From positions 124,001 through 188,000 of the forward strand of contig JAKFUG010000006.1 of NCBI GenBank assembly GCA_021732785.1: a DNA stretch of 64,000 nucleotides. The letters run 5' to 3'. A program made the translations under genes and the position numbers. The notes under the pieces are model-generated. The model searched no databases. It had not been told where the DNA came from and saw only the letters and a list, made by a program, of their open reading frames with translations. Below are positions 1 through 58,921 of this stretch, in pieces (the first letter of the stretch is position 1; each line of letters starts with the position of its first letter). This DNA comes from Planctomycetaceae bacterium. GTDB lineage: Bacteria; Planctomycetota; Planctomycetia; Planctomycetales; Planctomycetaceae.

Positions 1-58
1 TGTGGCAAGTGCCGAGGACTGAGTGATGCGACATCAACCCGTGTCATTGAATTAACGA

Positions 59-76
59 CCGCATTCGCGAATGCGG
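59..76. repeat. Perfect 18-bp palindrome upstream of the large secreted-protein gene
   Basis: The stretch CCGCATTCGCGAATGCGG is identical to its own reverse complement. It lies about 67 bp before the GTG start of the gene at 143. A perfect palindrome in a promoter-proximal position could be an operator for a dimeric regulator, or simply a short hairpin. Nothing else is recognised in positions 1-142 apart from a GGAG at 131-134. Confidence 0.4.
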
Positions 77-142
77 ATGTAATGTCTCGGCGAGGTCGGT
101 ATCGTAACAGGAACAAATATCACACACAGCGGAGTCATCTCG

Positions 143-3100
143 GTGAACGATCTTACCGCAGAGTCTGCATCCTTGAGAATCGATTATGGGAAACGATCGC
201 TTTGGAAATTGTGGTGGACCATTCGACGACAGTCGCCGCCGCGGGGGCACAAGCGTCCCGCTCCCATCGAACCGTTGGAAGTTCGCACGCTGTTAACCGC
301 GAATACGGCTTCTCTCGGCGACATCGGCACGAATGCGCTGACCGTGGTTCCGGAAGGATTGCTGATTTACTACGCCTATCCATCCGGGATCAATGGAACG
401 TTCTCGGTCAACGGAGCCGCTGCGGAATTTGCAAAGTACTCCTTCGTGGTTCTCGGGGGAGGACTGGAGCAAACCGGCCATGCCGATCACGCGAACACCG
501 CCGCGATTCTGAATCATCCGGCGACGGCGAACACCACGTTTTTCGGCTATGTCGACCTGGGTGTTTCCACGAGCAATTTCACGACCGCGGAAATCCATCA
601 GCGGATTGATGCCTGGCAGGTCACCGGCGCGGATGCCATCTTTCTCGATGATTATGGGTACGACTTCGGAGTCTCGCGGGCACGCCAGAACGACGCCGTG
701 GACTATGCGCACAGCCTCGGCCTGCCCGTCGTGGCGAACGGTTTCTTTATCAACGAAGTGTTCGGCAATCAGGTCGATCCGCAGTACAACCCCGGTGGGG
801 CCGCCCCGAGTCTGCAAGCCACGGATTATTACCTCTACGAGAGCTATCAGATCACGGAAGGGAGTTTTGTCGGTGGATCAACATGGCGTGCGAAAGCGGA
901 CGCGCTGGCGGCCGTGCGGACCACACTCCCCATCAAGGTTCTCGCCGTCACGACGACTCTCAGCGCCACATTCGATCAAAGCCAGTTCGATTATGCCTAC
1001 TGGTCGGCGGCGATGGATGGTTATTCCGCCTTTGGGTGGGGCGAGCCATCCTTCTCTTCCAGCACGGCGAGCGCGCCGTTTCGATCTCGGCCGGCAACCG
1101 ACCCTGGTTCCGCCTACAGTTCACCGATCGGCGGCGATTCTTCATTGTACACCCGTGAGACGAATCTCGGCCGGATTACGGTCAATCCAACCGCCCATCA
1201 GGCCGGGTTCAATGAACTCGATTTCGGCGATGCCCCCGAACTCGTGTCGAGCCCGGCGCCGGGCAGCTATCAAACCAAGCTCAGCAGCAATGGTCCACGC
1301 CATCGCATTGGTGGTCCGCGTTTGGGGACGCAGGTCGACTTTGAATCGGACGCCGTTCTGTATAACGAGGATAAAATCGACACCGGTTACGGCACCGGTG
1401 ACAACATTTATGGAGCCGATGAAGACGGCGTGACGTTCACGTCGTTCATGCAACCCTCACCGACGGTGGCGACATCGGCAACCGTCACGGTGAATGCGCA
1501 GAACACGAATGGAAATGCGCGGCTGGATGCGTGGGTGGACTTCAATCGAGACGGCGACTTTTCCGATGCAGGCGAGCAGATTTTCCAGAATCGTTCGCTC
1601 GCGGAAGGGAACAATGCGTTGACATTTGCCGTCCCTGCGGGGGCCGCTAACGGGAAATCGTTCGCCCGGTTTCGCGTGAGTACGGCGGGCAATCTGGCTC
1701 CAACCGGCCTGGCGAACGATGGCGAAGTGGAAGACCATGCGGTCGTGCTCGGCAGCAACGCGACGCTCCAGGTCATCGAGAACGCGATCCTCGCGCACCG
1801 CTTTCCAAATGGTGTCTTGAGGTCGAGCAACGGCGTCTCGTTTTACCAGCGCGACAATGGGCACGCGTGGTATATCCTCGATCCTTACTTTTCGTCTTTT
1901 GCCGTACGAGCGCTGCTCGCGGGACCGAACCTTGGCACGGCCGACAAATACGGCGTTGCGGAAAACCACCTCGCGTTCTGGCTATCGCACGTTCAAGGGA
2001 ACGGATCCCTTCCGCGACTGATCGTCGACGATAATTTTCAGTTCCTGACTACGGCCGTTGAAAGTACGTTCGACGATCCGATGACCGGTCTTCCCGTCGT
2101 TTTTGATCCCGCCAAGATTGGTGCCGACGCCGATGATTCCGCGTTATCGATGATCCTGTCTGTGGCTGCGGATTATGCAACTCACGGTGGTTCAACGTCG
2201 TTCCTGAATTCTCAGCGGACGGCGCTGGAATCGATTGCCACGACGCTTGTCAGTCTCATCGAAGCCGACAACCTCCCCACGCCATTCATCGATCCCGCGA
2301 GGAACTATTTCATCAAGCAGACACAGGACTGCGCAGAAGTCCTGCAAGCGCTTCGGCAATTCGCCGCTCTGGAACGGGACGTCTTTCACGATCCGCAACA
2401 GGCCGCGTTTTATACGGCGAGAGCCGATGCCACCGCCCCCGCGATTGAGCAGTCCCTTTACGATTCGGGAACGGGACTGTATCGCCAGTATCAAGGGGCG
2501 AGCACACCGGACTTAAACGTCTGGTATCCGATTGTGCTCGATCAGGTCTGGCCGATCATCACCGGAGTCGTCCCCGCCAACTCGGCTCGGGCCCGTCAAT
2601 TGCTGGATGCCGTCTACGGTGTCTGGGATGGCTCGCCGCAACTTAACTGGACGATGCGGACCGATTCGGCATCGCTGGCATGGGCCGCAATTCGAGCGGG
2701 CGACAAAACTCTTGCGGCGGCCGCCGTGCAACACGTGTTACCGTGGGCGTTGCAGAACACGCCCGCCAATCCCGCGGTCCCGATGACGGTGGCCGATTTT
2801 GGATTTTTGCTGCAATCGCTGTTGCCCTCGCTGGCTGGTCCGAATGCGACCACTTTCACAGAGAATCATCCCCCGCTCTCGATCAACCCGACATTGATCG
2901 TGTCCGATGTCGATACTGCCACGCTGGCCAGCGCCACGATCCGCATCACGAACTTTGTGCCGGGCGAAGACGAATTATCGTTCACCGGCAACGGCGCAAC
3001 GATGGGCAACATCGCCCTCGCCAGCAACATCAATGGAACGTTGATGCTGACGTCAGCCGGTGCCACGGCGACCTTGAGCCAATGGCAGTCCGCTCTCCGC

Positions 3101-24521: not shown

Positions 24522-24643
24522 GTGGCATCTCGCTTCGTTGGTCAAACCTGTCGCGGCATTTTTGAAGAGAATCTCCTCTCGGCACACTACGCCACCCTTC
24601 GATCCCGGTCAACCGCAAGAGACGCATGGACGGCCCGCCACTG

Positions 24644-40597: not shown

Positions 40598-41641
40598 TCA
40601 ATGGGCATCACTCGCATTGATGTCGACCTTACCTCGCATCGTTTGAAAGATGTAGGCGAAGTAACCGATGGTCAGCAGCATGCCGACCGCCCACCAGCCG
40701 AGCGCCACTACCAGACCGTAGCGGGCAGAGATCGAATTCGACGCGGTGAGACTGAGCGCCGGATCAATTGTCGAGCGGAGCCAGTACGGATAGTTGCCAG
40801 TCAACGTGGTGGCGGACAGACCGAGGAGAAACGCGGCGGAAGACAGGAACGCGGCGAGTGGCCGATTGCGTTGCAGAAAATAAAACACGCCGCCAAAACC
40901 TCCCATCGCGAGCATCACAAACGCCACGGACCACGGGCGCGAGAACAGATTCGGGAAGATGTCCGGTTGAACGAAGGCTGTGGCAAGCGTGACGATTACC
41001 CAGAAGGGAACGAGACTCGTCCAGATTCGACGAGCCGCGATGCGACTCCGTTCTTGAACCGGCCCTGCGGTGCGCCAATCGAGAAAGAGCGCCCCATGCC
41101 CGGTGAGGGCGAAGAGCGCAAAGAGGCCGACCAGAATGGTGTACCAATCGAAAATCCCGGCCTGTTTCCCCGGTTGAAAGTTCGTGAACAACGGCATTCC
41201 GGGCAGACCGGTTTCCTCCAACGGCACGCCCCGCACCAAGTTCGCGAGGGCCGTTCCGAACACGAATGCCAGCATTCCCGAGGCCAGCGAAAACACGGTA
41301 TCCCAAAATTCCCGCCATAATGGATTGTCTTGCAGCGATCGAAACTCGATCGACACGCCACGCAGGATCAACAACCACAACACGATCATGAGCGCGAGAT
41401 AAAACCCGCTGAATGCCGTGGCGTAGACTTTGGGAAACGCCATGAAGAGGACGCCACCCGCCGCAATGAGCCAGACCTCGTTGCCATCCCATACCGGCCC
41501 GATCGCGGAGAATACCGTGCGCCGTTCGAGATCGGTCCGCGCGACGAAACGGTGCAGCACGCCGACGCCGAAGTCGAAGCCGTCGAGGACCACGTAAATC
41601 GACAGCATCGCCGCCACGATGGCAAACCAGATTGCTTCCAT
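40598..41641 (-). CDS. cydB: Cytochrome bd oxidase subunit II
   Basis: 347 aa from ATG 41641 (a longer open frame upstream has no family match). Multiple membrane helices throughout. It begins MEAIWFAIVAAMLSIYVVLDGFDFGVG, contains GPVWDGNEVWLIAAGGVLFMAFP and RGVSIEFR, all conserved in CydB. It pairs with CydA, 4 nt upstream, to form a quinol oxidase with high oxygen affinity. No cydX-like small gene is seen after it; the stop lies 5 nt from the convergent LssY_C gene. Confidence 0.96.
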   Translation of the reverse strand: MEAIWFAIVAAMLSIYVVLDGFDFGVGVLHRFVARTDLERRTVFSAIGPVWDGNEVWLIAAGGVLFMAFPKVYATAFSGFYLALMIVLWLLILRGVSIEFRSLQDNPLWREFWDTVFSLASGMLAFVFGTALANLVRGVPLEETGLPGMPLFTNFQPGKQAGIFDWYTILVGLFALFALTGHGALFLDWRTAGPVQERSRIAARRIWTSLVPFWVIVTLATAFVQPDIFPNLFSRPWSVAFVMLAMGGFGGVFYFLQRNRPLAAFLSSAAFLLGLSATTLTGNYPYWLRSTIDPALSLTASNSISARYGLVVALGWWAVGMLLTIGYFAYIFQTMRGKVDINASDAH

Positions 41642-41645
41642 GGGA

Positions 41646-42977
41646 TCACGCCTCGTGCATCGCAGCGGGACCGCGGCTGATTTCTTTGAGGAATTGCAGT
41701 ACGAACACGATCCCCAACAGCAAGTACAGCCCGACGAACCCGAGCAAAGTGAAGACAACATCCCCCGGACTGACCTGCGTGGAACCGGCATCGGCGGTGC
41801 GCATCAGACCGTAAATGATCCACGGTTGGCGACCGAGTTCCGCGGTCCACCACCCGGCCGTGGTCGCAATGTATGGAAACGGAAATGCCAGCAGCAAGAC
41901 CCAGAGCATCGACCGCATACGCAAGAGTCGATCGCGCCATAACAGCGCAGTCGAGACGGCCATCACCAGCATCATCAACGTCCCCAGGCCGACCATGATG
42001 TGATAGCTGTAGTACAACAATTCGACATTGTCGGGCCATTCTTCTTTGGGAAAATCGTTCAAGCCTTTCACCGTGCTGCCGAAAGTGCCATAGGCCAGAA
42101 AGCTGAGGAATCCGGGCAGAACAATCGGATTCCGGAGTTTTCGTTGGGCGACATCGGGCTGTCCGATGATGGCGAGTTCCGCATACGGACCCCCTTCAAA
42201 CAGCCCTTCCATCGCCGCGAGTGCCACCGGTTGATGCATCGCGACCATTTTTCCGTGCTGATCACCCGTCGGAAAAGCCACCAGGACCGTCGAAAGCAAG
42301 CCGGCAATCACGCCGGTGCGCAGGCAAATGACGGCGTGTTCCCGATGCGTTCCGAGCAAGGCCCAATAGGCACCCACCGCGGAAACGACAAAGGATGCCG
42401 TCACCACGGAGGCCGCCATATTGTGGGCGTACTGCCAGAATGCCCAGGGATTGCCGAGGAACGCACGGAAGCTGGCCAGATGGAGCACACCGTCCTCGCC
42501 AATGACATGCCCGACCGGATGCTGCATGAAAGCATTGGCCACGATGATGAAATAACCGGATAACCACGACCCCGTCGCCAGGGCAATCGCCACCGCAAGA
42601 TGCCCTTTCGGCCCCAGCCGCTTCTCACCGAACAGAAACAAGCCGAGGAACGTGGACTCCAGAAAAAACGCGAACACGCCTTCCATGGCCAGGGTCTGCC
42701 CGATCACCTCACCGGAAAAGCTGGAAAAGCGCGACCAGTTGGTGCCGAACTGAAATTCCAGCGGAATGCCGGTGACGACACCCATCGCAAAATTGAGGCC
42801 GAAGATGCGGGCCCAAAACCGGGCGATTTCGTTGTATCGCTCATTCCCCCGGTACAACGCCGTGCTCTTAAACAGCACGATGAGCAATGCCAGTCCCATC
42901 GTCAATTGCGGGAAGAGATAGTGAAACGTGACCGAAAACGCGAACTGAAGACGATGCCAGAGCAACCCGTCGGCCAT
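41646..42977 (-). CDS. cydA: Cytochrome bd oxidase subunit I
   Basis: 443 aa from ATG 42977, with AAGGA 5 nt upstream. Heme ligand His in FSVTFHYLFPQLTMG, quinol-site/heme b region GTNWSRFSSFSGEVIGQTLAMEGVFAFFLES, GYFIIVANAFMQHPVG and the heme b595/d region all match CydA. Its length fits the short Q-loop class rather than the ~520-aa E. coli type. Expected to reduce oxygen at low tension and tolerate inhibitors. Confidence 0.96.
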   Translation of the reverse strand: MADGLLWHRLQFAFSVTFHYLFPQLTMGLALLIVLFKSTALYRGNERYNEIARFWARIFGLNFAMGVVTGIPLEFQFGTNWSRFSSFSGEVIGQTLAMEGVFAFFLESTFLGLFLFGEKRLGPKGHLAVAIALATGSWLSGYFIIVANAFMQHPVGHVIGEDGVLHLASFRAFLGNPWAFWQYAHNMAASVVTASFVVSAVGAYWALLGTHREHAVICLRTGVIAGLLSTVLVAFPTGDQHGKMVAMHQPVALAAMEGLFEGGPYAELAIIGQPDVAQRKLRNPIVLPGFLSFLAYGTFGSTVKGLNDFPKEEWPDNVELLYYSYHIMVGLGTLMMLVMAVSTALLWRDRLLRMRSMLWVLLLAFPFPYIATTAGWWTAELGRQPWIIYGLMRTADAGSTQVSPGDVVFTLLGFVGLYLLLGIVFVLQFLKEISRGPAAMHEA

Positions 42978-43199
42978 GATGATCCTTCTTGTCGGTCGCG
43001 ATTTCATCGCGGTTGCAGACCGCGAATGATCGAAACCGACACCACTCTTCGGAACGATGCCGAAACATTGTAGGCAGGACCTGCCGTGGAACGTACTCCC
43101 CCATTTCGAAATGGAATCGTCGGGACAGAAATGACATGAGGGCACGGAGGGCATCACGGGGCGCGTCGAGCAATCATGCCGAACGAGAATCGGCGGCCG

Positions 43200-43622
43200 T
43201 TACCATGAGAGCGCCGAACTATCGTTCACGCGCAGCTCACCGGTGGCCTGATTGTAGACCCACCCACACGGTGCCGATTCGACGCTGGTAATCGGATCCT
43301 GCGTGGAAGGAGCGATCGCGGCGTTCTGGTTCGCGCCGATTTGGGCGACCGGAAATGGTCCCGTGAGATACGATTGCAGTGATGTGTCTATCGTCGCCGC
43401 GGTCGGGAAATTCCCGTTCTGTGCCCGATAGAATTCGATTGCACCGCGGACGGCGCGCAACGATTGTTTCGTCCCATTTTCGCGCGCCGTGGCGGCCGTG
43501 TTGGTCATTTTGGGAGCCGCGACGGCCGCCAGAATCCCAATGACCAGCACGACAATCGCAAGTTCCACGAGGGTGAAACCGCAACGAGGGACTGAGCTTT
43601 TATGATTCGGCGCACGTTTCAC
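43200..43622 (-). CDS. Orphan major pseudopilin (copy 2)
   Basis: 140 aa. I choose GTG 43622 because the bases before it (GAGTGAGAATC) match those before the ATG of copy 1 (GAGACAGAATC), and it yields a 14-residue leader before G|FTLVELAIVVLVIGIL. The mature protein is the same length as copy 1 with no gap, identical over its first 25 residues and about 68 percent identical overall by hand count. It lies 27 kb from the machine operon with no other secretion gene nearby. It may be an alternative subunit expressed under other conditions. Confidence 0.88.
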   Translation of the reverse strand: MKRAPNHKSSVPRCGFTLVELAIVVLVIGILAAVAAPKMTNTAATARENGTKQSLRAVRGAIEFYRAQNGNFPTAATIDTSLQSYLTGPFPVAQIGANQNAAIAPSTQDPITSVESAPCGWVYNQATGELRVNDSSALSW

Positions 43623-43935
43623 GATTCTCACTCTTGCCGATGTCCGTCGTGGAGTGAACCACTCCGACAGAACTCGACTCGCCGCGATGCTCGGAATAGG
43701 AAACTTAGTTCGAAAACCACAAATGGCAAGTCGAATTGCAGAAATCATCCCGCGAAGTCGGTAAACCATCGGCAGGTTTGAGGTTACCGCTGTTGAAATC
43801 GGGGCTCACCGACTCGGATTTTCGTTGCTATTTTTTCCAGAGCGGTATAATTCGGCCATCACATCCCGCCGTTCTGGCGTGCCGCAGACCTGCATGACAT
43901 CCCTTCGATGATGTCGCGAAACGGAGGAAGATCCC
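43623..43935. promoter_or_regulatory. Divergent 313-bp intergenic region
   Basis: It separates orphan pilin copy 2 (minus) from the small gene at 43936 (plus). I see no additional gene. The sequence CGGTATAATTCGG (around 43849-43861) contains a good -10-like TATAAT pointing towards the plus-strand gene, without a clear -35. Confidence 0.4.
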
Positions 43936-44227: not shown

Positions 44228-47200
44228 TCATGGTTGCAGGGAACCCAGAGGGACCGTTCGCACGACGTCGGACCACGAATCGCCGGCGGGATCACTCGTG
44301 GCGGTTGTTTGAACAACGTTGCCCGGCGTCTTCCATTCGACATCAATCCGCGTGAGCAGATTCGCCGCGATGCTCAGCAACTCCCGTTGACCGTGTGCGA
44401 CCGAGTGAATCACTTGTTGAATCGGCGCACCGCGGCGTTCCCGGCACACGGTCACGTTATTGGTGCGGGCAGTCATCAAGGGGACACGCGGCAGTGCGGG
44501 TACTGTCCGACTGTGAAAGGTCAATTCGCCCGTCTCCTCGGGAACCATCACCACCGCACTCTCTGCATCGCCGGCTTCAATGGGCCATGCGTTCTGGAAG
44601 AGTTTGGAAAGGGGCCCGTCGATTGACAACTCATGGTTATCTAGAGGTTGAGAATTGTGCCGCAAAATGGTGGACAAGACCTGTTCGATGCTGTGTAAAA
44701 CCACCTTTCGCGCGAGACGGCGGAGCGGATCCCCCAAGGCATGGTCGTAGGAGCAACGCTGCTGCAGGAAACGCTGGAGCTTCTTCGATCCCGCAAAGAT
44801 ATCTCGTTCGACATTCGTACGCAGTTCCTGCACGAGGCGCGGACGATGTTCCAGAAGCAGCTTGCGTAACGACTGCTCATAGGGCGTCGGGAGCGTGCTG
44901 TCGGAATGATGTGCTGTCGCATCATTCGCCATGCGTTTGCCGAGCTGCTTGAGTTCCTGCCACATGCTCAGCAGGTGATCGATGAGGGCGGAAAGATTGG
45001 CTTCGATCGTCCGAAGTTGCCATTGAACGAGCACTTCGGTGAGTTCTTCGAAAGAACACAGGCCGTGTTGAATCAGTTTTTCAGCGAGAACCGTGCGTGG
45101 ATTCGCGCGCCGCGTCAGCCAGCTCCGGCCGTTCTTCGCCGCTTCGTCCGGACTGGCCGACGTCGAAAGCCGGATGCGTGAATTCGTCTGCTGGCTCTGA
45201 CGTTCAACGATAGCTTTTCCCAGAACGCTGATGAGATCGCGAATGCAATTGCGGCCGGCTTCCGCGACATGTCGGGCCGCATCCACGCCTCCCCTGGGCT
45301 GATCGATGAGGTCGCACACCCAGGTGATATACCGGCCCGCAATGGGCATGGCCTGCGAAGCGAGCCGCGAATGCAGCAGATCAAACAACGTGTTCCGCGA
45401 CGAATCCTGCGGGCGTTCGCCAAAATCCAGGCCGATGATTCGATCCTGCATCGCCAACGTCAACCGCGCCACTTCGTGGTCGGGAACATCGTCGGCAACG
45501 GCTTTCACGGCTTCATCAAATTGAGCCTGCAGGAAGTCGCGCTGTGAGCCTTTCAGCTCTTGATGAAGCATCTCTCGCGCCTGTTTGACGAGTTGCTGCA
45601 CATCGACTCCGCAGGCCAGCGTTTTCTGTTCCGCTTCCGCGGTCAGTTGCTGGTTCTTCGCGTTCTGGCTGTGCTCCATGGAGTTCAACAGCATTGTTGC
45701 CGACGAGGTCTGGTTGCGCTCACCGAATGCACCTTGCGGTTCCGAACCGCACCAGCCATCAATGATGTCGACGCAAAGTTGGCGAGTCAGATCGTCAACA
45801 AAAGTCCCGGCATACCCGCCGATTTGCTGCACTTGCACCAGATCCATCGAAGCGCTGCTCCGTGCCGGGACTGGAGATGTGCTCAGGGCCTGGTCGAGAT
45901 TCGTCAAGAGCCGACAGTAAAGAAGCTCGGCAACGTTATCGATGGCACGCAGCCAAACCGCGGTATCAAGATCTTCGCCGAGATGCAGGAATTGCGTCTT
46001 GGTGAAAGTCTGGTTATTACCGTGGAAGGGGGGCGTCTGGAGCATCGGCTCGCCGGGGTAAAAACTTCCCGCAGCGCTGAAATGTTCCAGTTCCGTCATT
46101 GTGGCAATCGCGTTCAGGACGGCTTTATCGCGCCCGCTGCCCGTGGGTGTGGAATGCAGCAAGACGCCATCGACGGGAGCGTCGGGAAAGCCGGCGCTGT
46201 GCAGTTCGTGGCGCGCCGCGTAAGCGAGATCCGCCAGCATGCCGCTCCCGGTTCCGCCGGAGATGGATGCCACCAGCAGGATACGCGGGGGCGTTTCCGG
46301 GCATGCGGAAGTCACATGCAAGATGGCGGAGCGAAGCGACGCCAGAACGCGGCTCGCATTGGTCACTAACGCCAGTCGACCGAGCGGACGGAGTCCTTCC
46401 GTGCGGAGGTTGCGGGGAACGTTGAAGAGCCAGCGGCGCGAGAGCCAGCGCCGATGAAGATGTCCCTGTTCGCGATATTCCGCCGAACTGCGCAGCGGTG
46501 TGGGAACCGTTTCCAGATCATTCCACGCCAACTGATCGTGATTCATCTCATTCAAGGTGTCGGTGTCGACATCGAGAAACAGCATCTTGAAAGCGGGCAG
46601 TGTGCCCATGCCTCCGAGCCGGTCGGCGATTCGTAGTCGCAGTCGTTGCAGAGTCTTCCCGGCCGTGCCTCCAATTCCGATCAAAATCGTCGGCACCGCG
46701 CGGCATTTTTGCGGGACCGGCTTGAGAGTCTGGTTGGTGTCCCCCGCGGCATGCGATTGAGTCGAAGCGGTTGACACTTCGGCAGGAGTGGGCGTGGCTG
46801 CGGGTTTGACGAGCAGGTCGCGAGAAAAGTGAGCCTTGGCAATGCCCGCTGCCGGACTCGCGGGTGAGCGTTTAGCCGCCGCCGTCAGTTCCTCGATCAA
46901 TTCCATGCAACATGCAAAGCGCTGCTGCGGGTCTTTTGAAAGGGCCCGGGCGATAATCGGCCGCTGCGCCATCGGGAGCGCGGTCAGGTCCGGATTCTCG
47001 CGCAGATGCTGCGTCGCCAGTCGGGCCGCGGTGGTGCCGTTGAACGGTAGCGCCCCCGTCAACATTTCCTGATAGAGAATCGCGAGACTGTATTGATCGC
47101 TGGCCCGCGTCGGTTGTCCCTCGAAGATTTCCGGCGCGGCATAGGTCGGCGTCAGTCCCTGCACGAGCGATGAGGATCGTTCATAGATATTCATCACCAG

Positions 47201-47758
47201 GCCGAAGTCGGCAACTTTCAACCGTCGACCGAACAACAGCAGGTTCGCCGGCTTGATATCGAGATGCTGAAGGGCGTATTCCTGGTAGATGTAATCGAGC
47301 ACATCGGCCACATCGCGCATCATCGCCAACAGTTCGTCCTGCGGGATGCCGGGGAGTTCCCTGGCCAGACAGCCTCGAAAATACTCCTGGAGATTTTTGT
47401 CGCCGAGTTCCGTGACAATCGCGAGACAATCGCCATTCTGTTCGATGCGTTCGATCGAAAGGAGAAACGGGTGGCGGACATCTTTGATGCGGTTCAGCGC
47501 GCGCAGTTCCGTGACGCGCTGCGTCGGATCTTCGCCATAAATCAGCTTAATCGCTTTGGGCACGCCGCCGGGGGCCAGCGTTTTCCAAACCTCTCCGTAT
47601 CCCCCGCGGCCAATGCGTTCCTGCAGGCGATAGCCTGGAATCGGCTCGCTGGAACTGGCATGGCTGCCCGTGAGTGCGTCTTGAGAAGACATAGCAGGCT
47701 TTTCCGGGAATCGCGGTGCGGGTGCAGACAGTTCGTCCGGCCGCAGCGCGGCGGTCAT
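44228..47758 (-). CDS. Ser/Thr protein kinase fused to a tubulin-like GTPase domain
   Basis: 1176 aa. Residues ~42-295 are a Hanks-type kinase: Gly loop IGRGGYGEVW, Lys in PKAIKLIYG, catalytic loop LQHLDIKPANLLL and DFG in VADFGLVM. The loop is HLD rather than HRD. A Pro/Thr linker (~295-355) follows. Residues ~358-700 match the bacterial tubulin-like (Tubulin_2) pattern: PTILIGIGGTAGKTLQRLRLRI, LFLDVDTDTLNEM and the T4-type signature ISGGTGSGMLADLAYAA. The C-terminal ~450 residues are helical with no domain I can name. It starts 3 nt after the AAA ATPase gene. Phosphorylation-controlled GTP-binding or filament formation is inferred. Confidence 0.9.
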   Translation of the reverse strand: MTAALRPDELSAPAPRFPEKPAMSSQDALTGSHASSSEPIPGYRLQERIGRGGYGEVWKTLAPGGVPKAIKLIYGEDPTQRVTELRALNRIKDVRHPFLLSIERIEQNGDCLAIVTELGDKNLQEYFRGCLARELPGIPQDELLAMMRDVADVLDYIYQEYALQHLDIKPANLLLFGRRLKVADFGLVMNIYERSSSLVQGLTPTYAAPEIFEGQPTRASDQYSLAILYQEMLTGALPFNGTTAARLATQHLRENPDLTALPMAQRPIIARALSKDPQQRFACCMELIEELTAAAKRSPASPAAGIAKAHFSRDLLVKPAATPTPAEVSTASTQSHAAGDTNQTLKPVPQKCRAVPTILIGIGGTAGKTLQRLRLRIADRLGGMGTLPAFKMLFLDVDTDTLNEMNHDQLAWNDLETVPTPLRSSAEYREQGHLHRRWLSRRWLFNVPRNLRTEGLRPLGRLALVTNASRVLASLRSAILHVTSACPETPPRILLVASISGGTGSGMLADLAYAARHELHSAGFPDAPVDGVLLHSTPTGSGRDKAVLNAIATMTELEHFSAAGSFYPGEPMLQTPPFHGNNQTFTKTQFLHLGEDLDTAVWLRAIDNVAELLYCRLLTNLDQALSTSPVPARSSASMDLVQVQQIGGYAGTFVDDLTRQLCVDIIDGWCGSEPQGAFGERNQTSSATMLLNSMEHSQNAKNQQLTAEAEQKTLACGVDVQQLVKQAREMLHQELKGSQRDFLQAQFDEAVKAVADDVPDHEVARLTLAMQDRIIGLDFGERPQDSSRNTLFDLLHSRLASQAMPIAGRYITWVCDLIDQPRGGVDAARHVAEAGRNCIRDLISVLGKAIVERQSQQTNSRIRLSTSASPDEAAKNGRSWLTRRANPRTVLAEKLIQHGLCSFEELTEVLVQWQLRTIEANLSALIDHLLSMWQELKQLGKRMANDATAHHSDSTLPTPYEQSLRKLLLEHRPRLVQELRTNVERDIFAGSKKLQRFLQQRCSYDHALGDPLRRLARKVVLHSIEQVLSTILRHNSQPLDNHELSIDGPLSKLFQNAWPIEAGDAESAVVMVPEETGELTFHSRTVPALPRVPLMTARTNNVTVCRERRGAPIQQVIHSVAHGQRELLSIAANLLTRIDVEWKTPGNVVQTTATSDPAGDSWSDVVRTVPLGSLQP

Positions 47759-47761
47759 CGA

Positions 47762-49099
47762 TTATTTGACTTTGAGAACCATGGCAAAATAAGTTTCCAC
47801 CGCGGCATCGAGGTACTCCGGACGGATCTCGAGGGGGTGACCGTGGTACCGACAGTAGTTGCGGACTTGCGTCAGCAGATCGCGGGCATGGCAACGCCGT
47901 TTCGCGCGGCCGGGCTTGTTGTAATGTTTGTCGAGCAGATAGTTGACGACATCCTTCCGGTACTCACAGCCAAACTTCTCGCAGTAAAGTCGGAAGAGGT
48001 GATGGAACTCCTCGTCCGTCGGGTCCGTCATGTGAATCTTGTACGGAATGCGCCGCAGGAACGCTTCATCGACGAGGTCTTCCGGTTCGAGGTTCGTCGA
48101 GAAGATGATGAGTTGTTCAAACGGAACCTGAATCTTGCGGCCGCTTGGTAAAGTCAGGAAGTCATGACGCGATTCCAGCGGCACGATCCAGCGGTTCAGC
48201 AATTCGCCCGGGGCAATGCGTTGGCGACCAAAATCGTCGACCAGGAGGCAGCCGCAATTGCTCTTCATCTGCAGCGGTGCCTCGTTCACATTGCGATCGC
48301 GGTTGAAACGTATTTCGAGGTTATCGAGGGTCAGCTCTCCACCCACCACCACGGTCGGCCGTTCCACGCGAATCCAGCGGCGATCGACGGTGGCCGCCCG
48401 CAGCAGTCCTTCTCCTTCTTCCGGCACCGCCTTGTGAAATTGCGTGTCGTAGAACTTGATGATCTCGCCGTTCTCGATGATGGCGTGCGGCACCCAGATG
48501 GATTGTCCGAAGCAACTCGTGACGCAACGTGCCAGGGTTGATTTACCGTTGCCCGGAGCGCCGTAGAGGAACATCCCGGCGCACGAGTTCAATGCCGGGC
48601 CGAGCAGATCAAAGAGCTTGGTCTCGACGGAGATATTCCGGCAGGCATTCAGCAGCGTTTGTCGCGTGGGGGCTTCGTCGGCGATCGATTGCGCTTCGAC
48701 CGAAACCACATATTCGGCCAGTGGAACGGGGGCCGGACCAACGTACGCACTTTGACGAAGGTGCCCGCGGGCCTGTTCGTGGCCCGCCTCTGTGAGCATG
48801 TAGTTGTAATCGTTGAGTTGGGCCGTGCCCGCGTGAGCGACGAGCTTGCGACTCCGCATCGATTCCAGGATCGGTGCCACGAGTCGCAGCGGCAAGCAGG
48901 TCATTGAGGACAGACGCCGCCCGCTGTTCCCGCCAATCACGGCGAGATGGCGACAGAGCAACGCTTCGACATATTGTTCGCTCAGCCCCGTCTCGGCGAT
49001 CGTTTTGGGTTCGGGGGGACAGAATGTGTCCTCCGACAACAGTTGAGCCAACAACTCCGCGTTGACTTCCATCGGCTTGTCGGTCTGGGTGGTCGTCAT
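47762..49099 (-). CDS. AAA+ ATPase partner of the kinase-tubulin protein
   Basis: 445 aa, GAGG 8 nt before the ATG. The N-terminal ~130 residues are a winged-helix-like helical region. The AAA core has Walker A GMFLYGAPGNGKSTLARC, Walker B CGCLLVDDFGRQ, sensor-1 LIIFSTNLEPEDL and an arginine-finger candidate in EAFLRRIPYKI. Residues after ~350 form a lid-like helical domain. It directly precedes the kinase-tubulin gene (3-nt gap), so the two almost certainly act together, perhaps as a remodelling ATPase for the tubulin-like partner. Confidence 0.9.
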   Translation of the reverse strand: MTTTQTDKPMEVNAELLAQLLSEDTFCPPEPKTIAETGLSEQYVEALLCRHLAVIGGNSGRRLSSMTCLPLRLVAPILESMRSRKLVAHAGTAQLNDYNYMLTEAGHEQARGHLRQSAYVGPAPVPLAEYVVSVEAQSIADEAPTRQTLLNACRNISVETKLFDLLGPALNSCAGMFLYGAPGNGKSTLARCVTSCFGQSIWVPHAIIENGEIIKFYDTQFHKAVPEEGEGLLRAATVDRRWIRVERPTVVVGGELTLDNLEIRFNRDRNVNEAPLQMKSNCGCLLVDDFGRQRIAPGELLNRWIVPLESRHDFLTLPSGRKIQVPFEQLIIFSTNLEPEDLVDEAFLRRIPYKIHMTDPTDEEFHHLFRLYCEKFGCEYRKDVVNYLLDKHYNKPGRAKRRCHARDLLTQVRNYCRYHGHPLEIRPEYLDAAVETYFAMVLKVK

Positions 49100-49616: not shown

Positions 49617-50750
49617 ATGCCAGAATGGTTGCTAGTCGGCAAAATGAGCGCCTCCGGCGAGAGCTGCAGCAAGCTCATCGCTCCTCTACCGTTTCGAGTC
49701 GGTCGACGTCCCGAAGCCTCGCTGACGTTGCCGCGGGCAACGGTTTCCGGCCTGCATGCCGAACTCTTCACGGTCGACGATCGGCTCTTCGCTCGGGATC
49801 TGGGAAGCACCAACGGCACATTCATCAATGGCGAGCGGTTGCTGGACGTGGCCGAAATCCAGCCGGACGATGTCATTCAGTTTGCCGACCTGGCACTGCG
49901 GGTGATGCATTCATCCGCCAAGTGTGACTCACATACCCGATCGGAAGATTTCTGCGACCATGCCTTGGCGCGCGTGCAGTTCGACACCTTGCTGCGCGAT
50001 GAAATCATCACGCCCTATTTTCAGCCGATCGTCGATCTCCGGACTGGTGCGACGCAGGCGTTTGAAGTCTTGGCGCGAAGCCGGCTGATTGGCCTGGAAA
50101 CGCCCGGCCGCATGTTCGCTGCTGCGGCCGATCTCCAAATGGAAGCGCGTCTCAGCGATCTGATGCGGCGTAAAGGGGTCGAAGTCAGCGAGCACTTTCA
50201 CGAAACTCCGCCAGTCTATTTGAACACTCACCCGATCGAATTCGTGAATGATGCCGCATGGGAATGGGTGAGCCAACTCCGCGAGATGGCCCCCACTCAA
50301 AAGCTGATCATCGAAGTTCATGAAGCCGCCGTGACCGATGTCATCAGTGTGGCAAGATTCCGCGCGTTGTTACGCGACCACGATATCGGCCTTGCGTTCG
50401 ACGACTTCGGTGCCGGACAGGCACGGCTTGCCGAACTGGCCTCCGCCCGGCCCGATTGCCTGAAATTCGATCGCAGCATCATTACCGGCCTCGATCAAGC
50501 CGAGCCTTCGCGGCAGCGATTTGTCCGCTGTCTGGTGGATGCCATTCGCGATATTGGTGTCACGCCCCTGGCCGAGGGCATTGAAACGCTGGGCGAACAA
50601 CAAATCTGCGCCGAATTGGGCTTCGAATTGGCGCAAGGGTACTACCTGGGGATGCCGCGCCCCATCGAATCCTACTGCAATTGGAGTTCGCCCCTGCCCT
50701 CCGATGATGTGGTTGTATGCCCGTCGAATCGAGTGCTTGAGCCCGCCTGA
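49617..50750 (+). CDS. FHA-EAL protein, predicted c-di-GMP phosphodiesterase
   Basis: 377 aa, GAGGTG upstream of the ATG. N-terminal FHA domain (~1-95): FRVGRRPEASLTLPR, SGLHAEL and the pThr loop GSTNGTFING. EAL domain (~115-360): FEVLARSR replaces EAL with EVL, and the other catalytic markers are kept (LNTHP, LIIEVHE, AFDDFGAGQA, LKFDRSII, AEGIE, QGYYLGMP). The FHA domain implies recruitment to a phosphothreonine protein; the kinase encoded divergently is an obvious candidate. This would link kinase signalling to c-di-GMP. Confidence 0.92.
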   Translation: MPEWLLVGKMSASGESCSKLIAPLPFRVGRRPEASLTLPRATVSGLHAELFTVDDRLFARDLGSTNGTFINGERLLDVAEIQPDDVIQFADLALRVMHSSAKCDSHTRSEDFCDHALARVQFDTLLRDEIITPYFQPIVDLRTGATQAFEVLARSRLIGLETPGRMFAAAADLQMEARLSDLMRRKGVEVSEHFHETPPVYLNTHPIEFVNDAAWEWVSQLREMAPTQKLIIEVHEAAVTDVISVARFRALLRDHDIGLAFDDFGAGQARLAELASARPDCLKFDRSIITGLDQAEPSRQRFVRCLVDAIRDIGVTPLAEGIETLGEQQICAELGFELAQGYYLGMPRPIESYCNWSSPLPSDDVVVCPSNRVLEPA

Positions 50751-54365: not shown

Positions 54366-54499
54366 CAACCACCATCGATTTCACTTGAATAACAGGGCCT
54401 TCGTCTGCATCATCACTGAAGAACACGCTCGCGCAGGCGTATCGACTTTCGGCACATTGGGAACTCGTCGACGGATCGACCTTGCCTGGGCATCACGCC

Positions 54500-55543
54500 A
54501 TGCGTGGGGTGACATTTGATCGACACGGCGGCATTGAAGTCCTGCAATACCGCGAGGACTTGCCGATTCCAGCGATCGGGCCGAACGATGTCCTGATCAA
54601 AATTCATGCCGTGGCGATGAATCATAACTGCCTCTGGGCCCGTCGTGGGTTGCCGGGCATGGACATCCTTTTTCCGCACATGAACGGGACCGACGCCGCG
54701 GGTGTAGTCGCCGAAATGGGTTCGGCGGTGACACAGTGGAAAATCAACGACGAAGTGCTGGTGCATGGCGGGTTTTCGTGCGGCCACTGCGTCGAATGCA
54801 GTCGCGGCCACCCCAGTTTCTGCCCGGAATTCCAGATTTGGGGCTTTCAAACGGGTCCGAATGCCGGTGGTGAGGCGGAATATGCCCGGGTGCCCGCACG
54901 ACATCTCGTCAGCAAGCCCGCCAATCTCAGTTTTGACGAAGCCGCCGCGATTGGCAGCGTGCTTTTGACCGCCTGGCGGATGCTCGTGGTTCGCGCCCAC
55001 ATTCAACCCGGCAATTTTGTCCTCATCTGGGGAGCCGCTGGCGGATTGGGATCCATCGCCATTCAGCTTTGCCGACTCTACGGCGCGAAGTCAATCGCCA
55101 TCGTGAGCGATGACCGCAAGGCCGCGTTCGTCGAGTCGCTGGGGGCCGACTTTGTGATCAATCGCCATACGCAACGGATCAATCGGGAAGTCATGGCCAT
55201 CACTCGCCGGCGCGGCGTGGACATCGTTTTCGAACATACCGGGGCCGAAACCTGGGAAACCAGCACATACTGTCTCAAGTGGGGCGGAACGATCGTGACG
55301 TGTGGAGCGACAACCGGCTTCAAAGCACCGCTCGATATCCGCTTTCTTTGGAACAAGGAACAGAACTACCTCGGTTCCCATTTTGGCAGCGTCTCCGAAA
55401 TGATTGATGCCTTGAAGTTCGCCGCCAGCGGTCAAATCCGGGCGATCATCAGCGACACCTTGCCCTTGTGCGACGTGGCCCGCGGACACGAATTGCTCGA
55501 ACGCGGGGAAGTGTTCGGAAAGATTGTGTTAGTCCCCGAGTGA
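54500..55543 (+). CDS. CCR-like medium-chain reductase
   Basis: 347 aa from ATG 54500 (TTG 54482 also possible). Rossmann segment VLIWGAAGGLGSIAIQL. From memory, several stretches follow crotonyl-CoA carboxylase/reductase rather than ordinary alcohol dehydrogenases: FEHTGAETW, TTGFKAPLDIRFLW and YLGSHFGS. Unlike typical CCR it has four spaced Cys (SCGHCVECSRGHPSFCPE) of the structural-zinc type. It may act as an enoyl reductase on CoA or ACP thioesters. The CCR link rests on remembered motifs and needs an alignment. Confidence 0.78.
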   Translation: MRGVTFDRHGGIEVLQYREDLPIPAIGPNDVLIKIHAVAMNHNCLWARRGLPGMDILFPHMNGTDAAGVVAEMGSAVTQWKINDEVLVHGGFSCGHCVECSRGHPSFCPEFQIWGFQTGPNAGGEAEYARVPARHLVSKPANLSFDEAAAIGSVLLTAWRMLVVRAHIQPGNFVLIWGAAGGLGSIAIQLCRLYGAKSIAIVSDDRKAAFVESLGADFVINRHTQRINREVMAITRRRGVDIVFEHTGAETWETSTYCLKWGGTIVTCGATTGFKAPLDIRFLWNKEQNYLGSHFGSVSEMIDALKFAASGQIRAIISDTLPLCDVARGHELLERGEVFGKIVLVPE

Positions 55544-55599
55544 AGTCTTTGGGACACGAGTTGAGATTCGATGAAACCCACATTGAGAAGGAAGTCACC

Positions 55600-55842
55600 A
55601 TGTCCACTGCTGAAACCGTCAAGCAATTGCTCTTGCGACATTTGGATGCGGATGAGGAAAAAGTCACCCCCACGGCTTTGTTGCGCAGCGAACTAGGGGC
55701 GAAATCGGTTGATTTTGTGGAATTCATCGTCGATTTGGAGAATGAATTTGAAATCGAAATCTCCGAGGAGGACACCGAAGCGTTACGCACGGTTGGCGAT
55801 GTTGTGAACTACATCGAGCAGCGCACGACGGCGCGGACTTAA
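55600..55842 (+). CDS. Free-standing acyl carrier protein (ACP 2)
   Basis: 80 aa, AAGGA 8 nt before the ATG. Phosphopantetheine Ser lies in ELGAKSVDFVEFIVDLE, so the usual DSL is KSV with Ser kept. The helix II acidic face (DLENEFEIEISEEDTEAL) is strongly negative, as for docking to ketosynthases. One base separates it from the FabF-like gene, indicating these two work as a pair. Confidence 0.92.
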   Translation: MSTAETVKQLLLRHLDADEEKVTPTALLRSELGAKSVDFVEFIVDLENEFEIEISEEDTEALRTVGDVVNYIEQRTTART

Positions 55843-55843
55843 C

Positions 55844-57070
55844 ATGCGCATGCACCGCGTCGCCATCACGGGACTGGGCATTGTCAGCAGTCTCGGCAAT
55901 TCCGTCGATGAAGTGCGGGCCTCGTTACAGGCAGGGCGCTCGGGCGTGGAACTCGTGCCGGAACGAGCGTCGCTGGGTTTTCGCAGTCGGCTTGCCGGAA
56001 CGATCAAAAACTTTGTCGCGGAGACGTTTGACCGCGAACACGAACGGCATCTGGGTGATGGCGGCCGGCTGGCGATGTCCGCGGTCATGCAAGCGGTCCG
56101 CGATGCCGATCTTTCCGCGGAGTTGCTGCAGAGCGACCGATGCGGCGCCATCGTCGGGAACTGCGGCAACATGCGGGACATCTACCAGTTCAATCACATA
56201 CGACGGGAGTTGAAGAAAAAACTGCCGGCGTTGGCCCTGGCTCGCAGCATGAATTCCACCGTGTCGGCGAACATCAATGTGATCCTTGGGCTACGGGGAC
56301 AGTGCTATACGGTGTGCGCCGCCTGTGCCTCGGGGGCCATGGCGATCGGTCTGGCAGCGCAATCCATTCGCGCAGGAATGCAGGATCGCATGATCGCGGG
56401 CGCGATCCAGGAAGGTTCGACCGAGTTTGATCTGCTGTTCGAAGCACTCCGGGTCTTCAGTCAGCGCGAAGACATACCAATGCAGGCATCGCGACCATTC
56501 GACCGGCGACGGGATGGGTTGGTGCCGTCTGCCGGAGCCGGCTTCGTCGTCCTGGAAAACTACGAACAGGCCGTGGCTCGCGGGATTCCGATCCACGGCG
56601 AAATCATCGGGTTTGCTTCCAATTCGGACGGTTTCAGCATGACGACTCCGTCCGGCGAAGGAAGCCTCCGTTGCATGCGGATGGCACTCGCCGATGCGGG
56701 CCTCACCCCAGACGCTGTGGACTACATTAATGCCCACGCCACGAGCACGCAGGTGGGCGACACCGTGGAAGCCAACGGAATCCGCGACGTCTTTGGTTCA
56801 CGTCCGTTCGTGAGCTCCACGAAATCGATGACCGGCCATGAAACTGCCGCGTCGGGGGCCACCGAGCTGATCTACACATTACTAATGATGCGGCACAGGT
56901 TCATTGCTCCCAGCATCAATATCGAAGAACTCGATCCGGAATGTGCCGGGATCAATCTGGTGATGAATGAAGCGGTCGAGACACCCATCCGCGTGGCAAT
57001 GAGCAACTCGTTTGGCTTCGGTGGTGTCAACAACGCACTAATTGTTTCGCGTCCGGATGAATCCGTCTGA
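55844..57070 (+). CDS. fabF: FabF-like beta-ketoacyl-ACP synthase (KAS II)
   Basis: 408 aa. The thiolase-fold triad is complete: Cys in VCAACASGAM (~158), His in NAHATSTQ (~298) and His in STKSMTGHETAA (~331). It should catalyse decarboxylative chain extension on ACP. It differs from housekeeping FabF in the gatekeeper stretch and in clustering with two dedicated ACPs, suggesting a secondary pathway. The FabF name is by family; it need not be the primary fatty-acid enzyme. Confidence 0.93.
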   Translation: MRMHRVAITGLGIVSSLGNSVDEVRASLQAGRSGVELVPERASLGFRSRLAGTIKNFVAETFDREHERHLGDGGRLAMSAVMQAVRDADLSAELLQSDRCGAIVGNCGNMRDIYQFNHIRRELKKKLPALALARSMNSTVSANINVILGLRGQCYTVCAACASGAMAIGLAAQSIRAGMQDRMIAGAIQEGSTEFDLLFEALRVFSQREDIPMQASRPFDRRRDGLVPSAGAGFVVLENYEQAVARGIPIHGEIIGFASNSDGFSMTTPSGEGSLRCMRMALADAGLTPDAVDYINAHATSTQVGDTVEANGIRDVFGSRPFVSSTKSMTGHETAASGATELIYTLLMMRHRFIAPSINIEELDPECAGINLVMNEAVETPIRVAMSNSFGFGGVNNALIVSRPDESV

Positions 57071-57091
57071 ACTCCTGGGGACAGCCTCGTC

Positions 57092-58096
57092 GTGAAACCA
57101 TTCTACGTGCGACATCCCGTGCAGATTCGAGCCACCGGGTGCTATCTGCCCGAACTCGTGCTCGACAATGATGCTCTGATTCAACGATTTGGTTTGACGA
57201 TCAACAGCCAGTGGATCGTTGCGCGGACGGGGATTCACAGTCGACACTGGTTGCGCGACGGGGAAACTACATCCGACATGTGTGTGGCTGCCGCGAAGCA
57301 GATTCTCGATCGGGCCGGAGTTCTGCCGTCCCAGGTCGATCGATTGATTCTCGCCACAGGGTCGCCGGATTATCCGAGCCCATCGACCGCGACGATTGTC
57401 GCGCGGAAACTCGGAGCCCGTTGTGCGGCCTTCGATCTCTCCGCCGCCTGTGCGGGATTCCTGTACGGTCTCGATCTGGGAATGGGTGCCATCACCATGG
57501 GAGCGAAAAATGTTTTGGTGATTGCCGCCGATGCGCGCAGCCGCTATCTCAACCCGAAAGATCGTCGCTCGCTGGTCCTGTTCGCCGATGGTGCGGGGGG
57601 CGCGCTGTTAACACCGGGCCATGAAAACGAAGCGGGGTTTTTATCGTTGGTGATTGATGCAGAAGGCCGTGAACGCATGGGGGCGCACATTCCCGCGGGA
57701 GGGGCCGCCCGTCCGACGTCGCAAGCCACGCTCGATGCGCGCGAGCATTACATTCAAGTCGACGGTAAGGATGAAATCTTTGATGCCTTTGTCGGTTACA
57801 CGCGAGAAATCTGTGCGCGCGCCCTTGCCGATGCGGCGTTGACCTGGAACGAGATCGACCTCTTCATCACGCATCAGGGGAATGCGCTGCTGGTGGATGC
57901 CACCGCGAAAGCATTAGGGCTCAATCCTGAGAAAGTCGTCAACACGGTGGCTTATCACGGCAACACGTCCGGTGCGACGGTGCCGATCGCTTTGACCGAA
58001 TCGATTGCCTCCGGTCGCATTCAACCGGGATCGCGCGTGTTGTTGACCGCGGTGGGTGCCGGTTGTACGTTTGGAGCCGCGATCTACCGATTTTGA
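57092..58096 (+). CDS. fabH: FabH-like ketoacyl-ACP synthase III
   Basis: 334 aa, GTG start. Catalytic Cys in DLSAACAGFLYG (~118), His in FITHQGNALLV (HQGN instead of HQAN) and Asn in YHGNTSGAT. These fit an active KAS III that starts chains from an acyl-CoA, or an O-acyl/ester-forming member of the same group. Interacting partners by position are the FabF-like KS and the ACPs. Confidence 0.93.
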   Translation: MKPFYVRHPVQIRATGCYLPELVLDNDALIQRFGLTINSQWIVARTGIHSRHWLRDGETTSDMCVAAAKQILDRAGVLPSQVDRLILATGSPDYPSPSTATIVARKLGARCAAFDLSAACAGFLYGLDLGMGAITMGAKNVLVIAADARSRYLNPKDRRSLVLFADGAGGALLTPGHENEAGFLSLVIDAEGRERMGAHIPAGGAARPTSQATLDAREHYIQVDGKDEIFDAFVGYTREICARALADAALTWNEIDLFITHQGNALLVDATAKALGLNPEKVVNTVAYHGNTSGATVPIALTESIASGRIQPGSRVLLTAVGAGCTFGAAIYRF

Positions 58097-58132
58097 TCGA
58101 TCGCCCTGTCACCCGTATTGGAATTGAAGCGG

Positions 58133-58921
58133 ATGGTTCCCACGTCTTCGGCCTGTCCGACCGCCATCGTGACTGGCGGCGGTCGTGGCATCGGACGAGC
58201 CATTGCCCTGCGGCTTGCGACCGACGGAGCCCGCGTGGTGATCATCGGACGAAATGCCGACCGCTTGCGGGAGACAGCGCAGCTTCTGAATGGCGGGGCT
58301 GCAGGGACCATCGAATGCCTGCCCGGGGATGTTCGTGATGAGGCGTTCTTCAATGACCTTCGTTCGACGGCACCCTCCGTGCAGATTCTCATTCACGGTG
58401 CGGCAGCCTTTGCTCCGTATGCCCTGCTGGAACAGACGCAGGATGACGAATTGGTCCCGGTCTGGGAGACGATTTTCACCGCGGCCCTGCGTTTGACCCG
58501 GCATGTCTTACCTGGCATGAAAGCGCAGCGCTTTGGACGCATCCTCTATCTCGGTTCGGCCGTCGCATCGCTGGGGGGAGCGGGACAAGTCGCCTATGCC
58601 TCCGCCAAGGCTGCACTCGAAGGCTTGATGCGGAGCGTGACCTGCGAATCCGCGATGGACAACATCGCCTGTAATCTGCTGGAACTGGGACTCGTGGAGA
58701 CCGAACGGGTGAAGGAGGCGCTCTCGTCGTCGCAACGGCGTCAACTGGTGAGTCGCATTCCCGCCGGACGTATGGGAACCGTCGCGGAAGTGGCCCATGT
58801 CGTTTCATTTCTGACTTCGACCGGAGCCGGTTACATTCAAGGAGCCGTGATTCCCGTCACGGGCGGTGCCGGACTCGGGCTCACTACTTACAGAGCGGGG
58901 GAGACCCATGCGGATCTCTGA
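58133..58921 (+). CDS. FabG-like short-chain dehydrogenase/reductase
   Basis: 262 aa from ATG 58133 (TTG 58118 possible). NADP motif VTGGGRGIGRAIALRLA, IHGAAAFAPY in place of the common NNAG, catalytic Ser in LGSAVAS and the YxxxK motif YASAKAALEGLM. It would reduce a beta-keto group. Its stop overlaps the ligase start by 14 nt, so the two are co-translated. Confidence 0.9.
   Translation: MVPTSSACPTAIVTGGGRGIGRAIALRLATDGARVVIIGRNADRLRETAQLLNGGAAGTIECLPGDVRDEAFFNDLRSTAPSVQILIHGAAAFAPYALLEQTQDDELVPVWETIFTAALRLTRHVLPGMKAQRFGRILYLGSAVASLGGAGQVAYASAKAALEGLMRSVTCESAMDNIACNLLELGLVETERVKEALSSSQRRQLVSRIPAGRMGTVAEVAHVVSFLTSTGAGYIQGAVIPVTGGAGLGLTTYRAGETHADL

Follow-up and report, generated by a model that had tools for sequence, protein, structure and literature searches.

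A kinase-FtsZl1 fusion gene of a Planctomycetaceae bacterium is linked to genes for an AAA+ ATPase and an FHA-EAL protein and encodes a predicted split tubulin fold

Background

The FtsZl1 (FtsZ-like 1) family, which corresponds to Tubulin_2 (PF13809), was described by Makarova and Koonin in 2010 (PMC2875224). According to the available sections of that paper, its members contain an FtsZ-like domain, a coiled-coil or helical region and a C-terminal domain, and four planctomycete members "possess an additional N-terminal PK domain". Counterparts of T6-H7 and any similarity of the C-terminal domain were not found for the family, and the partner genes named in those sections encode vWA, kinase, GTPase and OmpA proteins, with no AAA, FHA or EAL among them. 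Here, a gene encoding such a kinase-FtsZl1 fusion was analysed, together with its neighbours, in a stretch of 64,000 nucleotides from a Planctomycetaceae bacterium (assembly GCA_021732785.1, contig JAKFUG010000006.1), the whole of which is hereafter named the window. An earlier reading of this DNA, made without database searches (the sequence-only reading), had presented the fusion and an adjacent AAA ATPase gene as a candidate undescribed system. As regards the fusion this has to be rejected, since kinase-FtsZl1 proteins have been known since 2010 and are in print in the sections cited above. The window protein has, in its model, the domain order of the FtsZl1 family; in contrast to the systems of 2010, for which vWA, kinase, GTPase and OmpA genes are named, the partners found here are AAA and FHA-EAL proteins (in some loci also GGDEF/CBS proteins). 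Neither this partnership nor the split tubulin fold described below was found among the papers listed in searches of the open-licence PMC literature (supplementary files lay outside that search), and both the three-gene cassette and that fold appear to be new.

Results

Linkage of the fusion, AAA and FHA-EAL genes

The AAA gene and the fusion gene form a pair on the minus strand, in which the fusion is second and begins 3 nucleotides after the AAA stop. The spacing is the one given by the sequence-only reading, and the strand is newly assigned. The FHA-EAL gene diverges from this pair. The features are as follows:

47762..49099, minus strand: AAA+ ATPase, 445 amino acids, first gene of the pair (open reading frame, AlphaFold2 model, VIA)
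~48752-48979, minus strand: winged-helix-like N-domain of the AAA protein, residues 41-116 (named by element order)
~47780-48652, minus strand: AAA+ module of the AAA protein, residues 150-440
44228..47758, minus strand: kinase-FtsZl1 (Tubulin_2) fusion, 1176 amino acids (open reading frame; PF00069 and PF13809 above cut-off)
46865..47647, minus strand: Hanks-type kinase domain of the fusion, residues 38-298 (K71, HLD as HRD variant, DFG)
46697..46864, minus strand: low-complexity linker rich in Thr/Ser/Pro/Ala, residues 299-354
45737..46696, minus strand: N-terminal portion of the predicted tubulin fold, residues 355-674 (S1-S7, T1 GIGGTAG, T4 GGTGSG)
44588..45700, minus strand: predicted helical insertion between H9 and S8, approximately residues 687-1057 (DSSP of the model, VIA ranges)
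44321..44563, minus strand: predicted C-terminal completion of the tubulin fold, approximately residues 1066-1146 (S8-S10, H11-H12, R1137)
49617..50750, plus strand: FHA-EAL protein, 377 amino acids, divergent from the pair at 517 nucleotides (Pfam)
49695-49883, plus strand: FHA domain (PF00498, E 1.6e-15)
49986-50657, plus strand: EAL domain (PF00563, E 9e-39)

The genome of the window (6.69 Mb, 96 contigs) contains one PF13809 match. Conservation of the genes was analysed in a first survey of 59 genomes, the window's own included, in an out-of-sample survey of 391 genomes of the phylum, and in a named collection comprising the best 80 of 568 candidate loci, which partly overlaps the 391-genome set (labels beginning with L, G and f denote loci, genomes and families of these collections). 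In the first survey, the 11 closest full AAA homologues of other genomes (52-69% identity) were located near a fusion gene, on the same contig, whereas neither the fusion nor the FHA-EAL protein found a match in 11 lower-scoring AAA-paralogue loci that were opened. The 391 genomes were searched with a profile built from 12 linked AAA proteins and with a profile of the FtsZl1 part, and the best four AAA and best two FtsZl1 candidates were scored per genome. Each of the 17 best AAA matches (at least 643 bits, 16 genomes) had an FtsZl1-part match less than 5 kb away, the largest gap being 4.7 kb; the next AAA match scored 629.8 bits, and among the matches listed no other AAA lay within 10 kb of an FtsZl1-part match. 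Five of these 17 loci had contributed to the profile. The other 12 were new, and the kinase-FtsZl1 and FHA genes were present in all of them (12/12); eight lower-scoring AAA loci fetched alongside contained neither the fusion (0/8) nor the FHA gene (0/8). FtsZl1-part matches were obtained in 25 of the 391 genomes (E<=1e-12), nine of which had no linked AAA, five of these matches being weak (E 1e-31 to 1e-16). Loci of the named collection with AAA scores of at least 639 bits carried the fusion in 22 of 26 cases and the FHA gene in 21 of 26, and among the 54 lower-scoring loci one (L137) has both genes and 53 have neither. All three genes are carried, for instance, by Rhodopirellula sp. SM50 (L135) and Candidatus Laterigemmans baculatus (L134).

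The kinase and tubulin domains were also aligned in 34 rows, corresponding to the fusions of 24 closely studied cassette loci (the window, 11 relatives and 12 new loci) and 10 fusions without AAA, and in the tree both groups are split by one branch with support 100/99. An FHA-EAL homologue was found in 24/24 of the cassette loci. These results indicate a genuine linkage of the AAA gene that is restricted to a single AAA clade. The tight kinase-AAA linkage of the sequence-only reading is therefore upheld in its recurrence in other genomes, and falls short in having overlooked the FHA-EAL gene, which recurs about as regularly as the AAA gene. Distances between protein pairs also correlate over the 24 loci (r 0.971 for kinase-AAA, 0.914 for AAA-FHA, with 0/2000 permutations reaching either). 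From this conservation, the AAA, kinase-FtsZl1 and FHA genes very probably work together.

Several observations weigh against this partnership. The correlation of distances also reflects shared species history, which the permutation test leaves in. Four of the 26 high-scoring AAA loci (L117, L120, L123 and L127) lack the fusion in the sequence examined, where a weaker search for kinase and tubulin also found nothing; L120 and L127 carry the FHA gene. Among the 22 fusion loci of the named collection, 19 have the FHA gene and three do not: the sequences of L133 and L145 start with the AAA gene itself, with no FHA seen, and Rhodopirellula europaea 6C (L132) gave no FHA match in the 10 kb examined on both sides. 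Finally, families f3 and f4 contain 10 fusions, in nine loci, without AAA or FHA nearby (no FHA, EAL or AAA match in any of the nine), which indicates that the AAA is not needed everywhere.

The partners described in 2010 were also sought in the surroundings. Among 102 proteins flanking 13 loci, the commonest Pfam family was GGDEF (five proteins), and vWA, GTPase and OmpA were absent from the best 25 of 133 families. Two fusion loci each are present in genomes G044, G048 and G404. A ParA/Soj-like ATPase of one cluster, named by eye, is encoded near the AAA-less fusions of family f4 in 3/3 loci (L074 12313-13137, minus strand; L079 7737-8588, plus strand; L081 12126-12959, minus strand), and might represent a second partnership of a tubulin-fold protein.

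The fusion protein and its predicted tubulin fold

The motifs listed by the sequence-only reading are all present in the fusion: the catalytic Lys (K71, in AIKLIY), HLDIKPAN (165), DFG (184), GIGGTAGKT (361), LDVDTD (395) and ISGGTGSGM (499). Pfam detected Pkinase at residues 43-283 (E 6.7e-30, above cut-off) and Tubulin_2 PF13809 at residues 358-562 (99.7 bits against a cut-off of 27, E 2.7e-28), the match that the same reading had suggested looking for; PF00091 reached 13.4 bits, below its cut-off of 33. The catalytic Lys, HLD and DFG were kept in 22/22 aligned fusions, and by its catalytic Lys, HxD and DFG the N-terminal domain is identified as a Hanks-type Ser/Thr kinase. A long hydrophobic segment was not found in the fusion, the AAA or the FHA-EAL protein (19-residue maxima of 1.13-1.35, compared with 2.59 for cytochrome bd subunit I), and the three proteins are therefore probably cytoplasmic.

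Sequence searches of the PDB using the FtsZl1 profile yielded nothing but helical chains, helical bundles among them (best E 0.005), and weak FtsZ/CetZ-type matches (best E 1.4). Residues 345-1176 were modelled with AlphaFold2 from the 34-row alignment (model residue 1 is residue 345 of the protein), with a mean predicted local distance difference test (pLDDT) of 84.2 and a predicted template modelling score (pTM) of 0.79. The best Foldseek match of the model was CetZ2 (4b45, E 5e-6). The best VIA match was BtubA (2bto_A; Z 23.2, root mean square deviation (rmsd) 3.9, 326 aligned of 413), and CetZ 3zid was matched with Z 22.5 (297 aligned, rmsd 4.1). These are whole-fold matches at a sequence identity of at most 15% in the three rows, and among the 50 VIA matches listed every one was a tubulin, BtubA/B, a CetZ or a tubulin complex (Z 22.2-23.2). 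A tubulin fold, which the sequence-only reading had deduced from motifs, is thus also predicted by the model.

The matched ranges run from about 8 to about 800 of the model (8..802 against whole tubulins). In the DSSP assignment seven strands lie at 13-303 and three at 722-768, ten in total as in tubulin, with helices only between both groups; helices at 343-690 are followed by a mixed C-terminal part, so that the order of FtsZ-like domain, helical region and C-terminal domain is that of FtsZl1. Strands and loops (S1-S10, T1, T4, H9 and others) were named from this element order. The model thus predicts a full tubulin fold, interrupted between H9 and S8 by a helical insertion of about 370 residues and completed by the C-terminus, an assignment that rests on element order and VIA ranges in a model so long that, with this tool, parts of it are barely tested. 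The insertion reading is supported by the alignment, because the distance from a conserved W to the R of the C-terminal R.D..W motif (R1137) varies from 68 to 498 residues, and this R is kept in 31/34 rows, the remaining three lacking that segment. In L105 the W-to-R stretch has 68 residues and A replaces W; this protein may be incomplete, since too little remains for S8-S10. The FtsZl1 insertion is strongly shortened in family f10 (L104, L105).

The long unassigned tail of the sequence-only reading would accordingly not be separate, but comprise this insertion together with the C-terminal portion of the tubulin fold. The available sections of the 2010 paper report no likeness for the C-terminal domain (PMC2875224), which the model places inside the fold; if the prediction is true, the interruption by some 370 residues would explain why that domain could not be placed earlier.

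The T4 signature, of the GGGTG(S/T)G type, reads SGGTGSG in the window protein, where G157 and G162 (model numbering) are invariant and G158 and G160 are present in at least 90% of the 34 rows, and one T1 glycine, G19, is invariant.

The AAA+ partner

Pfam AAA models matched the AAA protein below threshold in all cases. Its AlphaFold2 model (pLDDT 88.2, pTM 0.82) shows a clear AAA+ fold, and the best VIA match was 8p49_D (Z 18.0, rmsd 4.5, 289 aligned), which covers both domains (model 41..441). This closest structural match, N-domain included, is an uncharacterised protein of Pyrococcus furiosus (Q8U0N8) with 11% identity to the AAA protein; nothing relevant was found in the literature on 8p49/Q8U0N8. 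The next VIA rows are various AAA+ proteins, Lon and sigma-54 activators among the first. The motifs GAPGNGKST/T, LL(V/I)DDFGRQR, IFSTN and FLRRI, which we take to be Walker A, Walker B, sensor 1 and the arginine finger, were kept in 12 cassette AAA orthologues. With these motifs in an AAA+ fold, the protein is predicted to be an AAA+ ATPase.

The AAA protein is not assigned here to the meiotic AAA clade of microtubule-severing proteins (spastin/katanin). Spastin tops the sequence matches (profile E 5.3e-9), but across only ~57 positions around Walker A, and VIA puts 8p49, Lon and sigma-54 activators first; spastin was not among the 50 VIA matches listed, which by itself excludes nothing.

The linked AAA proteins of family f10 (L104 8963-10861, L105 9640-11646) have an N-terminal extension of ~190-230 residues without Pfam match above cut-off. 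AAA paralogues belong to a widespread family with weak Pfam matches that is present in the majority of the 59 genomes (54 with some match), with no fusion nearby in the loci opened; two are present in the window genome (G000:C24:52466-53740 and G000:C93:6414-7061).

The FHA-EAL protein and its GGDEF partner

The residues compared in this section, for the FHA phosphothreonine pocket, the EAL catalytic set and the GGDEF motif, are those that we take to be the functional positions. The six FHA positions are G, R, S, H, N and N in 24/24 homologues, and by its PF00498 match and these pocket residues the window domain is identified as an FHA domain. In the EAL catalytic set (E, N, E, E, D, D, K, E, E, Q), all ten positions are intact in 13/24 proteins, and the set is broken in 11/24. 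The window protein is among the former and has, by this set, the make-up of an EAL phosphodiesterase.

In 15/24 cassette loci there is also a gene for a GGDEF-type protein, which often has CBS domains. Of six examples scanned, four (L068, L098, L100 and L104) exceeded the Pfam GGDEF cut-off, the L105 protein was below it, and the L094 protein matched CBS alone; L094 and similar proteins were joined to L098 through homology. All four partners encoded next to an intact EAL have the GGDEF motif (4/4), and all 11 next to a broken one lack it (11/11); these 11 genes were all placed between the FHA and AAA genes, on the opposite strand. Because all 24 loci keep the FHA residues and 13 of them the full EAL set, phospho-reading looks like the constant function, and cyclic di-GMP (c-di-GMP) chemistry like an optional layer that is lost as a pair. 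The joint loss of the EAL and GGDEF motifs, with the FHA kept, sets a phospho-reading core that is constant apart from a c-di-GMP layer that can be dispensed with.

Thr107 of the FHA-EAL protein sits in the inter-domain linker just after the FHA domain, and a linker Thr is kept in 21/24 cassette loci. FHA proteins of the GarA/OdhI type are phospho-switches. The window FHA resembles them in having an adjacent threonine, here encoded beside a presumptive kinase, and differs in that this Thr is C-terminal to the FHA domain and leads into an EAL or pseudo-EAL; a similar switching would be conceivable by analogy.

Other candidate phosphosites were noted in loci L077, L078 and L094-L096, namely a TDTKTI-type Thr motif kept in the kinase-tubulin linker of the fusion and, in its partner, a QTVTLAM motif that follows the FHA domain. 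A weak FHA-like open reading frame (37 bits) is located at 23919-24587 of the window, on the minus strand.

Other genes of the window

Subunits I and II of a cytochrome bd oxidase are encoded at 40598-43157 (minus strand), and a pilin-like N_methyl protein then follows at 43200-43769. Genes for a dehydrogenase, a carrier protein, a ketoacyl synthase and an AMP-ligase lie on one strand at 54482-60452 (plus), resembling a cluster of lipid or polyketide type.

Discussion

The gene partnership, the domain make-up, the conservation of kinase and FHA residues and the retention or loss of EAL and GGDEF motifs can be read from the genomes compared. From these and from the predicted tubulin and AAA folds, we infer a mechanism that involves GTP binding, assembly, phosphorylation targets, FHA docking, an AAA substrate and an effect on c-di-GMP. 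We tentatively favour, at a little under even confidence, a phospho-regulated GTP-binding tubulin-fold scaffold with an AAA remodeller and an FHA/c-di-GMP read-out. The FtsZl1 part would bind GTP and self-assemble or act as a scaffold, bringing the kinase domains together; the kinase would phosphorylate threonines on itself (in the linker), on the FHA protein (at Thr107, next to its FHA domain) or on both, and the FHA domain would dock on the phosphorylated form. Where the EAL is intact, as in the window, docking would bring a phosphodiesterase for c-di-GMP to the assembly, joined in some genomes by a GGDEF partner. Using its winged-helix-like N-domain, the AAA ring might then remodel or dismantle the assembly and so reset it.

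The T7 loop counts against the assembly step of this scaffold. The acidic motif NxDxxD of T7 serves assembly-coupled GTP hydrolysis in canonical tubulin and FtsZ. In the 34-row alignment no acid is conserved between the equivalents of H7 and S7, an equivalence based on the model, and the NxD of the window protein at the T7 place is not common to its aligned relatives. Canonical assembly-coupled hydrolysis is therefore doubtful, and the filament proposed by the sequence-only reading is unproven. From BtubA and CetZ the fusion differs in its T7 acids, which are not conserved, in the kinase in front and in the predicted helical insertion. The T4 glycines and one T1 glycine, which are kept, together with T7 acids that are not, would suit a monomeric or ring-limited tubulin fold that senses GTP and gates the kinase without polymer, the AAA being a chaperone or unfoldase for this switch. 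The 2010 authors, in the sections available, did not confidently find T6-H7 equivalents either (PMC2875224), and contacts within a filament could be blocked by the long insertion, which sits on the C-terminal domain. The predicted tubulin fold is nevertheless complete, and a model of the monomer gives no basis for judging such contacts. We regard such a switch as possible, with rather low confidence.

A role as a conflict or anti-phage system, with the kinase, the AAA and FtsZl1 as sensor or effector parts, is unlikely. It is suggested by PADLOC, which matched the kinase to mad6 (E 4.9e-37) and to many PD-T4-6 models, and the AAA to IetA (1.8e-8), and by the tubulins that occur in described conflict systems according to the available part of PMC7159879. 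The cassette is also patchy in the window's family, and the FtsZl1-part profile gave no match at E 1e-12 in G001, a well-completed genus-mate of the window. However, such kinase matches may be given by any kinase of this type, and the best AAA matches span short stretches. Four of the 102 flanking proteins matched mad3 and two matched mad8 (PADLOC, best 25 of 79 families), but these profiles match 14/14 control genomes, and each of 12 cassette genomes has 85-145 and 52-93 matches, respectively, so that the flank matches carry no weight. In family f5 the cassette seems stably inherited: it is kept in 9/9 sampled genomes of two genera (g39, g47), with two other listed f5 genomes lacking it, and flanking genes c42-c46 are common to the three f5 loci compared. 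Defence was hence rejected as the leading view, the mad6 and PD-T4-6 links and the weak IetA link remaining candidates. Still less likely is a cell-division or budding module standing in for FtsZ in some Planctomycetes. A PF00091 FtsZ/tubulin match (E<=0.001) was found in 0/23 cassette genomes, while the same search found one in 13/14 control genomes, and the fusion, a predicted tubulin-fold protein, is the only member of the tubulin superfamily detected in cassette genomes (PF13809 itself was searched in the window genome only). But 366 of the 391 sampled genomes have no FtsZl1-part match at 1e-12, and G001 is among those without; the fusion is therefore not a general division protein, and a stand-in for FtsZ in all Planctomycetes is rejected. 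That the genes are unrelated neighbours sharing an operon without common function is hardly credible. Gene order and strand do vary, as the AAA abuts the fusion in 12/24 loci, the FHA and not the AAA in 11 and neither in one, but the linkage outlasts this rearrangement, is confined to one AAA clade, and the distances correlate.

The cassette names partners for kinase-FtsZl1: a kinase, a phospho-reader and an AAA motor. It occurs in cells where FtsZ was not found. A bolder version of the scaffold, in which a self-phosphorylating tubulin polymer of FtsZ-less bacteria would be dismantled by its own AAA and read by an FHA/c-di-GMP adaptor, is improbable on present grounds; if true, one locus would encode a phosphorylation-gated tubulin cytoskeleton, analogous to microtubules with their severing ATPase.

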